A DNA stretch of 45,090 nt. Origin: Desulfurococcales archaeon (GTDB lineage: Archaea; Thermoproteota; Thermoprotei_A; Sulfolobales; Desulfurococcaceae). Below, piece by piece: positions 16,268 through 20,508 of the stretch. The translations under genes were made by a program, and so were the position numbers. Where the stretch lies: NCBI GenBank assembly GCA_015520735.1, contig WAPN01000036.1, positions 1 through 45,090 on the forward strand. The letters are read 5' to 3'. Each line of letters starts with the position of its first letter. Within the stretch, counting starts at the first letter, position 1. Under the pieces are notes generated by a model. That model worked only from the letters and a program-made list of their open reading frames with translations. It did no database searches and was not told where the DNA came from.

Positions 16268-16672
16268 CTATTCCCGATAGCTTCGATCAGTATATTTCAT
16301 AGTGTATTTTTTAGCCTCAAACCTTCTGGCTATATGTTTGAAAGCAGCTATGGGGTCTCCCCCGGAACCGCAGGTGTAAACATCAACGGTTGCAAAACCG
16401 TACTCAGGCCACGTATGGATAGAGATATGGCTCTCCAAGACTATCCCAACAGCGCTAACTCCCGGGCTTATCTTCCATGACCTCACATCAAGTAGTGTGA
16501 AACCCCCTACCTCAGCAGCCTCTCTGATTATCTCTTCAATCATTTTCTCGTCGCTGAGGATCGCCTGGTTGCAGCCATAGAGCTCGCCGTAAACATGCCT
16601 CCCCACGACAGGAGTTTCTCCCCCCTTCTCCCTAACCATATAGATAACCCCCGTCATCCCAGACACCCCCAT
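16268..16672 (-). CDS. speD: Pyruvoyl-dependent decarboxylase, AdoMet decarboxylase (SpeD) family
   Basis: A self-processing decarboxylase of polyamine synthesis. The proenzyme cleavage motif VLESHISIHTWPE puts cleavage between E80 and S81, with S81 becoming the pyruvoyl group. H86 and C101 (VYTCGSG) have the same spacing as the conserved His and Cys of prokaryotic AdoMet decarboxylase. In Crenarchaeota this family also includes an arginine decarboxylase that arose from SpeD, and the present motif does not decide between the two activities. At 134 residues it has an N-terminal extension; ATG codons at 16672, 16657 and 16639 are all possible, and 16672 suits a leaderless transcript from the promoter described next. 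Confidence 0.9.
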   Translation of the reverse strand: MGVSGMTGVIYMVREKGGETPVVGRHVYGELYGCNQAILSDEKMIEEIIREAAEVGGFTLLDVRSWKISPGVSAVGIVLESHISIHTWPEYGFATVDVYTCGSGGDPIAAFKHIARRFEAKKYTMKYTDRSYRE

Positions 16673-16681
16673 TCAATGTTT

Positions 16682-16708
16682 TCTCCCCCGGGGGGAAATA
16701 AAAAGATA
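16682..16708 (-). promoter_or_regulatory. speD promoter with GC palindrome between TATA box and start
   Basis: On the minus strand TATCTTTTTATTT (16708-16696) is centred about 30 bp before the speD ATG, right for a leaderless transcript. It is followed directly by CCCCCCGGGGG (16695-16685), a perfect 10-bp palindrome plus one base. A protein bound there would block RNA polymerase, so this is a plausible operator. Confidence 0.5.
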
Positions 16709-16760
16709 CCCCCCACCCCTCCGACGAGAGGTCTCATTATATCTCAAGAAGAGATTATAT

Positions 16761-16791
16761 ATGCCTTTAAATCTTTCCCCCGGGGGGTAAT
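16761..16791 (+). promoter_or_regulatory. Mirror-image TATA plus CCCCCGGGGGG element facing a gene-free stretch
   Basis: On the plus strand ATGCCTTTAAATC (16761-16773) is followed by CCCCCGGGGGG (16777-16787) and TAATA. This repeats the TATA-then-palindrome arrangement of the speD promoter in the opposite direction. The shared element is CCCCCGGGGGG[A/T]AATA in both. The predicted start near 16795 would transcribe the region before 17141, where no protein gene is seen. Confidence 0.4.
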
Positions 16792-16799
16792 ACCGGGAA

Positions 16800-17140
16800 T
16801 TATCTGCAACTTCTGAGCCCTAGTTCCTCATAATCCTTCTCTAGACGCTAAGATACGTTTTTCCTTAACACTTCCGGTTCTCATTCAGATCTTCAGATGC
16901 TCTCTCATGCCTAGTATATGCTTGTAGATACGGTGCTGAGATCCATCATATTGAAACACAGAGTATTAGCTAAGGCTTAGCAAGTATGAAACGACAAATT
17001 CTTCTACCTGCTACAGGAGTACCTTGTGCCCAGACTCATGATTTGTGCAAATACGTAATTTCATCGATATTATTATATTATATCTTCTGGTAAGAAATTA
17101 TTTTAACACAGTCACAACCAGGATTCATATAGGTGCTAAG
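16800..17140 (+). other. Gene-free stretch, possible untranslated transcript or long leader
   Basis: No convincing reading frame occurs here. The stretch lies between the outward-facing speD-type promoter and the small gene at 17141. It contains a 13-base palindrome GCTAAGGCTTAGC (16969-16981) with partly matching flanks, and an AT-rich block TATTATTATATTATATC (about 17069-17085) that may be the TATA region for the 17141 gene. No tRNA, C/D box pair or riboswitch was recognised. Confidence 0.3.
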
Positions 17141-17353
17141 ATGACTTCAAAGAACGGCTGTGAGGATCTTGTTCCTGTGCTTGAGGAAGCAATAGATCTC
17201 ATAGACAAGATCGAAAGTCACCTAGGCAGGATCAAGCCCGGAGACAAGATAAGCCCTGGAGAACTATTTCTTATAGCGTCCACTCTCATGAATCTCCGTG
17301 AGAAAGTCGTTGAGGCGCGTATGAGAGCTTTTGAATACTGTACTTGTAAGTGA
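17141..17353 (+). CDS. Small hypothetical helical protein, 70 residues
   Basis: A small, probably all-helical protein (LVPVLEEAIDLIDKIESHL, then SPGELFLIASTLMNLREKVVEARMRAF), compatible with a helical hairpin or dimer. Cysteines lie near the N-terminus (C7) and in the terminal EYCTCK. No family was recognised. ATG 17141 is chosen because AGGTG stands six bases upstream and the frame before it is uncharacteristic hydrophobic sequence. An AT-rich TATA candidate lies about 60 bp upstream. Its last 68 bp overlap the convergent beta-helix-like gene. Confidence 0.6.
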   Translation: MTSKNGCEDLVPVLEEAIDLIDKIESHLGRIKPGDKISPGELFLIASTLMNLREKVVEARMRAFEYCTCK

Positions 17354-17822
17354 TCGCTGGGTTTTCGGCACGGATCTCCTCAAACCATACATGTGGATCA
17401 TAGAACATTATCTCGCGGACATCCTCCAGAATTCTTATCCCCACCCCCCATGAGAGTTTAAGTGTGTGAACAACTATTCTCGAAGCATATGATCTCTCCA
17501 TGAACAGTGTATCTGCCTTAATAAAATCAGCTATGACGGAGCCATTTCGTCCAATGATCAGAGCCTTATCCGTATTAAGGACATCAATAAATAAAGGCCC
17601 ATTGGCGATCAGATATGCTTCTTTCACTTCTATCCTGGATGCAAGACCATGTCCTATGACTGTTAGTTTTTCAGCCGATATCGTACCATTAACCTGTACT
17701 CGTCCAATGATTGTTAGATCGATGGCCTTGATCGTCGTCGACTTGACTCCACCAATTATTATAGTGGGCTTTACCAGTTCCAGTTTTCTCGAAATAACAT
17801 AGTCGTAAATAGTCTCCACCAA
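17286..17822 (-). CDS. Hypothetical protein with beta-helix (bactofilin-like) repeats
   Basis: Residues about 15-115 show short alternating hydrophobic strands every 10-20 residues, each followed by a turn: TIIIGGVKS, LTIIGRVQVNG, KLTVIGHGL, AYLIANGPLFI, KALIIGRNGSV. This is the look of a right-handed beta-helix as in bactofilins and polymer-forming proteins. A C-terminal non-repetitive tail follows (IMFYDPHVWFEEIRAEN). There is no signal peptide, so a cytoplasmic scaffold or filament former is possible. TTG 17822, or GTG 17819, is preceded by AGGGAGAGG. The call rests on pattern alone. Confidence 0.5.
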   Translation of the reverse strand: MVETIYDYVISRKLELVKPTIIIGGVKSTTIKAIDLTIIGRVQVNGTISAEKLTVIGHGLASRIEVKEAYLIANGPLFIDVLNTDKALIIGRNGSVIADFIKADTLFMERSYASRIVVHTLKLSWGVGIRILEDVREIMFYDPHVWFEEIRAENPAITYKYSIQKLSYAPQRLSHGDS

Positions 17823-19239: not shown

Positions 19240-20124
19240 TCATATATGTTTATGGCAGACAAACCCCTGAGCCCTCCTATCATAGATAACAGGATAGAAA
19301 CCGGCTTTCCTCAACCGCTCACTTATACCTTTCAATATGCTTGGAGCACCATGTCTCCGCGGCTCTCCTGTGTAATGGAACATAATTCCGCCCGTACGGA
19401 GAACCCTATAGGCCTCACGATAGAACTCAAGACTATACAAGTCTCCTGTTCTACGCGTGAATCTTGGAGGATCATGGATTATCCTGTCGAAATAAGAGTC
19501 CGGGAGCATGCCTATGATCTTGGAGGCATCGCCTAGCAATATCTTTACACGTGCATCACTAAGCCCATGGCTCCAGGGATTATGTGCTGCAACCCAGTAG
19601 ACGTTCTCGTCTTTCTCTATGGTCACGACTAATTCCGCGCCTCTTAGAATGGAGTGTATGGCAGTGTATCCCAGACCCATACATGTATCGAGAACCCTCA
19701 AGCCCTTCTTTATCCTGGCGGTCCTCACTTTCATCCGTGAATCAGTCCAGGGATCAACTCCTACTATCCGGTGCATGTGTATCCCGTTTATCTCGAGAGT
19801 AGGGGCCCCATATTTCTTGATGGCTTTTAGCTTATAGAAACCAGTATCTGTTCTCCTGACTACCTCGTATGCATTCGTCGTCTGAACATTGATGTAGATT
19901 ATTCTGTCAGGTTCCCTGGGCACCAGAAGAGGGATCCGTGCATCGTCTAGAAGTATTTTATTATTGTCCAGGCATAGCTTGCTCCAAGTTATTCCAAGGT
20001 CTAGGCTCGCGTCTATGCATGACCGGGATCCTGTTATCTCGTCTACAAGCCATTTTGTGAGCCAATAGCCCTCTCTCGGCTTGAATTGTACCTCATATCT
20101 ATCGAGAATTTCTTGTATCCCCAT
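19240..20124 (-). CDS. Predicted archaeal SAM-dependent methyltransferase (COG2521-like)
   Basis: A class I methyltransferase of the archaeal COG2521 group. VLDTCMGLGYTAI near residues 144-156 is the SAM-binding motif I; VVTIEKDENVYWVAAHNPW is motif II; RIIHDPPRFTRR (motif IV, D-P-P) is the putative catalytic loop. An N-terminal domain of about 100 residues precedes the Rossmann fold. The substrate is unknown; the D-P-P motif suggests a planar amino group or similar. It is the last gene of the metal-uptake operon, three bases after the NikR-like gene, an unexpected partner for a transporter. Confidence 0.75.
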   Translation of the reverse strand: MGIQEILDRYEVQFKPREGYWLTKWLVDEITGSRSCIDASLDLGITWSKLCLDNNKILLDDARIPLLVPREPDRIIYINVQTTNAYEVVRRTDTGFYKLKAIKKYGAPTLEINGIHMHRIVGVDPWTDSRMKVRTARIKKGLRVLDTCMGLGYTAIHSILRGAELVVTIEKDENVYWVAAHNPWSHGLSDARVKILLGDASKIIGMLPDSYFDRIIHDPPRFTRRTGDLYSLEFYREAYRVLRTGGIMFHYTGEPRRHGAPSILKGISERLRKAGFYPVIYDRRAQGFVCHKHI

Positions 20125-20127
20125 AGC

Positions 20128-20508
20128 TTATTCACTCCTATAATCTATCGGTATGTATCTCGAAGTACATCCTCTGCTCAGTATTTCGCGGTGCAACCTG
20201 ATAATGTCGGTTGAGAAGCCATCTACCACTATGGTCGCTATACATGTATTGGATAAATGGTAGTGATTGTATGCTACGACGAGGTTGTGATACTTTTCTA
20301 TGAGATCCAGAATATCCTCCGATCCTTTTACAACTATTATTCCCCTACATCTGTGTCTCACAAGATAGTACAGGTGATCATGAACAATATTCTCTATGGC
20401 CATTCTCACGATCCTGCTCCTATCGCATCCCAGCTTCTCGGATAATTGGTCGAGCTTGTCCGCTAGATTAGAGGGTATGCTTATCCCGAACCTTCTCTTC
20501 ACGGTCAT
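20128..20508 (-). CDS. NikR-like ribbon-helix-helix metal-responsive regulator
   Basis: A 126-residue transcription factor with an N-terminal CopG/ribbon-helix-helix DNA-binding domain (RRFGISIPSNLADKLDQL, then SRIVRMAIENIV) and a C-terminal ACT-like domain as in NikR. NikR binds nickel through H76, H87, H89 and C95 in E. coli. Here the matching residues appear to be H74, H82, H84 and C89, in YNHYHLSNTC. The same residue types are present but with shorter spacings, so the metal may differ. The ATG overlaps the permease stop by 4 bp. Being inside the operon, it probably senses the transported metal and represses its own locus. Confidence 0.75.
   Translation of the reverse strand: MTVKRRFGISIPSNLADKLDQLSEKLGCDRSRIVRMAIENIVHDHLYYLVRHRCRGIIVVKGSEDILDLIEKYHNLVVAYNHYHLSNTCIATIVVDGFSTDIIRLHREILSRGCTSRYIPIDYRSE

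Follow-up and report, generated by a model that had tools for sequence, protein, structure and literature searches.

Two GC-only palindromes upstream of speD in a Desulfurococcales archaeon probably belong to tandem promoters with a speD-specific G-tract module

Organization of the speD upstream region

The window analyzed here is a stretch of 45,090 nucleotides, contig C36 of the 1.53 Mb genome of a Desulfurococcales archaeon. On the minus strand it carries the S-adenosylmethionine decarboxylase gene speD, whose product is responsible for a key step of polyamine synthesis, and the nearest relatives of this gene are found in Desulfurococcaceae and Desulfurococcales records. The features of the locus are listed below, where P1 and P2 denote the proximal and distal putative speD promoters, G001 is a sister genome and matrix scores are those described in a later section.

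16268..16672, minus strand: speD, S-adenosylmethionine decarboxylase (Pfam AdoMet_dc, E 6.8e-36; TIGR03330, 2.9e-37)
16658..16790, minus strand: speD control block, conserved as far as the outer edge of the distal element (92-100% identity to G001)
16666..16670, minus strand: leader G5 tract, Shine-Dalgarno-like, part of a cluster of three G5 tracts (from sequence)
16685..16695, no strand: proximal CCCCCGGGGGG element, following the P1 TATA directly when read toward speD
16696..16704, minus strand: P1 TATA-like box TTTTTATTT (from sequence; matrix score 15.7, second in the window)
16709..16719, minus strand: G tracts GGGGTGGGGGG upstream of the P1 TATA, separated from it by 4 nt (from sequence; a class-wide feature of speD promoters)
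16766..16771, minus strand: putative P2 TATA core TTTAAA, self-complementary (matrix score 19.4 toward speD, rank 1 in the window)
16772..16776, minus strand: AAAGA between G tract and TATA, BRE-like, with the modal spacer length of 5 nt (from sequence and the spacer distribution)
16777..16787, no strand: distal CCCCCGGGGGG element, whose G5 on the speD strand is the P2 G tract
17141..17353, plus strand: conserved 70-aa protein, a helical hairpin (homologues, alignment and a structure model with pLDDT 87.6)

Comparison with relatives that carry GGGGGTGAT-ATG suggests that translation of speD likely starts at Met6, with its first base at 16657, after the Shine-Dalgarno-like GGGGGTG. The G tracts run on into the first speD codons (16620-16652, minus strand), with GGGGG at 16648-16652 and GGGGGG at 16620-16625. 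In Sulfolobales, a G5 tract is often found directly after the speD ATG.

The two identical elements were found 92 bp apart, where the original prediction had placed them. The assignment of the proximal one to a TATA-like box serving speD was also borne out, as TTTTTATTT lies directly upstream of the element in the speD sense. Toward speD, P1 reads TATC-TTTTTATTT, and its BRE is less A-rich than that of P2. Since the element is composed of C5G6, the strict palindrome is the 10-bp core CCCCCGGGGG.

Occurrence of the palindromic element in the genome

The frequency of the element was determined by pattern searches of the whole genome and not with the matrix. Within the 1.53 Mb genome, exact matches to CCCCCGGGGGG are limited to the two upstream of speD, while its reversed control has none. 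Allowing up to one mismatch, the 11-mer was found seven times in the window against 0.77 expected, though six of the seven are the two sites themselves in different registers. The 10-bp core with up to one mismatch occurs at 17 places per strand of the genome, the reversed control at 10. One further exact core exists in the genome, a third near-exact site at C1:26077; it was set aside as it overlaps the 3' end of an ORF. Other exact matches to the 11-mer in relatives (G001 C31, G032, G052, G055, the rRNA-like match in G053 and G012 C53) were likewise discarded, being located in coding or GC-rich stretches. The counts of two copies and no control copy, along with retention in the sister genomes, agree with the earlier view that a GC-only palindrome of this kind is unlikely to arise by chance.

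Conservation of the elements in sister and family genomes

Both elements are kept in G001, where they are 93 bp apart. In the second sister genome, G005, the distal element is kept and the contig breaks just before the proximal one. The distal element is identical in G001 and G005. Conservation in relatives, the absence of which had been named as evidence against the prediction, is thus present in the sister genomes.

In the wider family, the element or the shorter CCCCCGGGG is positioned directly after the speD TATA in ten genomes (G006, G012, G015, G016, G018, G019, G020, G026, G027 and G035), so that in this subset the palindrome is kept at a fixed distance from TATA, as in an operator. Six genomes (G006, G015, G016, G018, G019 and G026) possess an extra CCCCCGGGG about 60 bp upstream, and G006 and G019 a third about 146 bp upstream. 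TATA is mostly absent beside such copies, indicating that palindromes can occur there without being promoters. These extra copies hint that each promoter may have two or three palindromes serving as cooperative repressor operators, whether or not there is a second promoter. This is a tentative possibility, as the spacing varies (59-63, 92-93 and 146 bp) and in the class as a whole the majority of speD genes carry the G-tract module described below but no palindrome. It is compatible with tandem speD promoters, and one does not exclude the other.

The pattern TTTAN{2,9}CCCCSGGGG was searched in 40 genomes of the family. Matches fall at speD promoters, at the distal element in the window genus and in the promoter region of one G007 gene for a small protein; the rest are internal to ORFs. 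The genome-wide search for the element next to TATA boxes, proposed along with the prediction, therefore points almost solely to speD promoters, the inspected matches elsewhere being within ORFs. A match in G013 lies 40 bp upstream of a spermidine synthase gene, but speE was rejected as a second regulon member, since that genome is GC-rich and no other inspected speE has the element. The targets are accordingly not several genes of one pathway but speD only, plus the small protein in G007 and G008; a speD paralogue lacks the element. No conserved regulator gene was found beside speD in the relatives inspected. One speD of G007 (contig C246, L293) was dropped from the family comparison, because this gene is probably contamination: its upstream region matches that of the Pyrodictiaceae record L009. 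Another contig of G007 (C241, L154) ends in AGATGTGTATAAGAGACAG, which resembles a transposon-adapter remnant.

Direction of the distal element

The TTTAAA of the distal element is the same on both strands, and its direction must therefore be taken from the flanks. Toward speD the site reads GGGGG-AAAGA-TTTAAA, and away from speD it reads TATGCC-TTTAAA-TCTTT-CCCCCGGGGGG. The archaeal BRE is A-rich and situated upstream of TATA (PMC5316973). The distal TATA is preceded by the A-rich AAAGA when read toward speD, and by TGCC when read away from it.

A position matrix was built from 46 distinct speD modules of other genera, excluding the window genus, and was run over both strands of the window (about 90,000 positions). 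The distal element toward speD ranked first with a score of 19.4, followed by P1 with 15.7 and the next site with 12.7, while the distal element away from speD scored -14.8. P1 and P2, both read toward speD, are thus the top two matches, and P2 fits the TATA/BRE arrangement well. In a family-wide scan, with the genus excluded from training in each case, the best module upstream of speD points to speD in all scanned genomes but two. The exceptions are G008, where the top module is divergent from speD, and G042, which has no match. Upstream modules pointing away from speD are carried by G006, G008, G025 and G035. Since the G tract and TATA make up most of what the matrix scores, this stretch is also compatible with a mirrored TATA-C5G6 arrangement as in P1. 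A direction toward speD is hence favoured but not proved for the distal element.

Extent of conservation and the gap beyond the distal element

Identity to G001 is 100% over 16658-16715, 92% over 16716-16755 and 100% over 16756-16790. Past 16790 it is 75%, 69% and 73% in the next three segments (69-75% across 16791-17050), and it climbs again to 86% before the small ORF and 88% within it. The 90 bp upstream of the small ORF show 86-93% identity between the sister genomes. G005 has the same identity pattern, plus 238 inserted bases in 16791-16850. This insert (L152, G005:C125, about 110-350) has CCCGTGCA/TGCACGGG near one end and is perhaps a small mobile insertion.

The conserved block extends no farther than the outer edge of the distal element and therefore appears to belong to speD. 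Together with the direction score, this boundary argues for tandem speD promoters, P2 and P1, and against the mirror-image promoters proposed originally, a reading that the self-complementary TATA invites and that the present analysis corrects. The prediction also had the distal side facing a stretch without a protein gene. This is true of 16795-17140 only, and the conserved 70-aa ORF, 345 nt away, occupies 17141-17353. The transcript proposed to arise from the distal promoter is not supported: nowhere in the gap is conservation lower than in its start region, which also holds the insertion in G005, and no Rfam family or tRNA was found downstream of the distal element.

The 70-aa protein has homologues in 31 of 61 genomes (E below about 1e-3) and forms a family conserved in Desulfurococcaceae, without matches in Pfam or NCBIfam. 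Its gene adjoins speD in G000, G001, G005 and G008, is about 1 kb off in G039 and G043, and is unlinked in most relatives. On the opposite strand, an ORF at 17286-17822 (minus strand) overlaps its 3' end; it is repetitive, bactofilin-like by eye, has no Pfam match and is similar to G007 L154:3073-3534. Further along, a methyltransferase-fold protein (19240-20124, minus strand) shows weak aminopropyltransferase similarity (NCBIfam PRK00811, 9.8e-10, below cut-off) and is possibly an additional polyamine-type enzyme. In G027 C120, a relative sits immediately upstream of the gene for the small protein. A NikR-like ribbon-helix-helix protein (20128-20508, minus strand), below the NCBIfam cut-off, is also found near speD in G001.

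With the small-protein gene as the divergent neighbour in the window, the pair could still represent two divergent promoters that share an operator. The distal promoter would then make a plus-strand transcript, either noncoding or an mRNA with a long leader that encodes the 70-aa protein. The 4-nt spacing between the distal TATA and C5G6 mirrors that of P1 and would suit such an arrangement. Besides, the small-protein gene of G007 has its own promoter of G tract, TATA and CCCCCCGGGGG, and that of G008 is divergent from speD with a G-tract module. Against this stand the score of -14.8 in that direction, the lack of an A-rich BRE on that side, and the low identity and insertion right past the element. 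The 90 bp before the small ORF are better conserved, as expected for its own promoter, and in most relatives the gene is located elsewhere without the element. This arrangement is considered unlikely for the window. The promoters of G007 and G008 indicate a possible second target in some lineages, and a weak form of the divergent idea survives in that respect.

A G-tract module at speD across Thermoproteia

In relatives without the palindrome, a G5-6 tract on the coding strand is found just before the BRE/TATA, commonly with another tract after TATA. This second tract is often situated 11-16 nt past the TATA start. At 94 speD upstream regions sampled from the class, coding-strand tracts of G5 or longer average 2.13 and C tracts 0.53. 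The corresponding G-tract averages are 0.16 for shuffled sequence, 0.21 for speE, 0.32 for the SpeD-fold paralogue and 0.25 for 196 ORF starts; these signature statistics ignore the kinship of the genomes, many of which supplied the speE and paralogue controls as well. A tract of G4 or longer lies within 9 nt before TATA at 59 of 94 speD genes. Among polyamine-gene controls the count is 2 of 48, and the expectation from shuffles is 1.06. In 36 of the 59 speD modules, the spacer between G tract and TATA is exactly 5 nt. Of the 14 numbered Thermoproteia families sampled, 10 have the module in one member or more. It is rare in Sulfolobales (1/14), where G tracts are found downstream of TATA instead, and absent in families f3 and f7. 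An extreme case is the cultured Vulcanisaeta distributa (L019), with five tracts of G7 or longer around the TATA and start of speD within 150 nt upstream.

The signature is also almost restricted to one gene. Among 144 whole genomes of the class, GGGGGTAAN{0,3}TTWAWA has 51 matches, of which 21 are at speD (20 from their coordinates and, in addition, G087:C3). Among the remainder, no gene turns up repeatedly in a convincing way.

Some of the G tracts, for instance GGGGGTGA before ATG, are plausibly ribosome sites, and one could imagine a chance GC run combined with ordinary G-rich Shine-Dalgarno sequences. The whole-genome counts, the relatives, the controls and the shuffles contradict such a coincidence, and tracts upstream of TATA, where no ribosome site is possible, speak against it too. 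Its probability is practically negligible.

Structure-forming potential of the G tracts

The strand bias of the tracts (2.13 G5 against 0.53 C5) may instead reflect a structure, such as a quadruplex, A-form DNA or a switch formed by the P2 leader RNA, stabilised directly by polyamines and providing feedback without a protein regulator. Relaxed quadruplex motifs occur at 32 of 94 speD genes compared with 5 of 48 controls. Three G5 tracts are clustered here, and in several genomes speD is among the very few such sites outside structural RNAs. Polyamine-responsive G2-quadruplexes have moreover been reported for human polyamine genes (PMC6067879). However, 62 of 94 speD genes are without even a relaxed four-tract motif, and four clustered tracts are present in only 8 of 94 when loops are limited to 12 nt or less. 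Energy folding that permits quadruplexes still picks ordinary helices. The stability of the P2 leader does not exceed that of its shuffles (z -0.77), and the leader has no Rfam match. These results disfavour an RNA switch or quadruplex in this leader. The fixed 5-nt distance to TATA also resembles the geometry of protein binding. Structural sensing by the tracts is accordingly rated as quite improbable. In its most far-reaching form, an ancient built-in polyamine sensor, long or branched polyamines would alter the structure of G-tract DNA or of the transcript around the BRE/TATA and silence speD without a protein regulator; this is speculative and would hold only against long odds.

Proposed organization and function of the tandem promoters

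The two elements most probably belong to tandem speD promoters with a speD-specific module, likely bound by a dedicated factor, a reading to which we assign a probability of roughly 0.6. P2 (TATA 16771-16766) and P1 (TATA 16704-16696) would both transcribe speD from the minus strand, with starts predicted near 16744 and 16677. Each would be a copy of the speD promoter module, the P1 copy having diverged. The order of this module would be a coding-strand G5/G6 tract, a spacer of usually 5 nt at the BRE position, TATA, and often a further G tract. In some Desulfurococcaceae, a C tract may have been gained ahead of the G tract, giving the CCCCCGGGGGG palindrome as a local elaboration of the wider module and providing additional or cooperative sites.

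The module, its fixed spacing, gene specificity, conservation and direction score are observed at the level of sequence. The constant spacing and the near restriction to one gene point to a speD-dedicated factor that would influence how TFB/TBP load, competing with or assisting them at the BRE and TATA. SAM-decarboxylase synthesis may thereby follow polyamine demand.

Hyperthermophilic archaea depend on unusual polyamines. In the open-access literature searched, no paper was found on the control of polyamine synthesis in these organisms, including archaeal speD regulation. Similarly, no description of this speD element was found in the literature searched, which was mostly open-access, and the archaeal G-quadruplex surveys consulted do not mention speD or polyamines. 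A signature at one polyamine gene in 10 of the 14 sampled Thermoproteia families offers a short, testable DNA target toward a regulator or a direct sensor.

Comparison with known systems

G2-quadruplexes are described in human polyamine-gene mRNAs, including that of the SAM decarboxylase AMD1 (Lightfoot et al. 2018, PMC6067879). The likeness consists of G tracts at genes of the same pathway and is a parallel, not membership. The human structures are formed by two-G tracts in mRNA untranslated regions, whereas the best conserved speD tract precedes TATA, outside the transcript, and quadruplex potential is limited to some speD genes.

With the archaeal pathway-specific operators that lie beside BRE/TATA, the speD site shares a short inverted repeat that overlaps the promoter core and is kept in relatives. 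Unlike them, it is GC-only, has essentially one target gene per genome, and its factor is only putative. The closest frame is the archaeal BRE/TATA promoter recognized by TFB-TBP, with which it shares the TATA, the A-rich 5-nt stretch just upstream and the position relative to the start codon. It differs from an ordinary promoter of this type in the G5-6 tract that abuts the BRE at this single gene, and in the doubling of the whole unit in the window genus.
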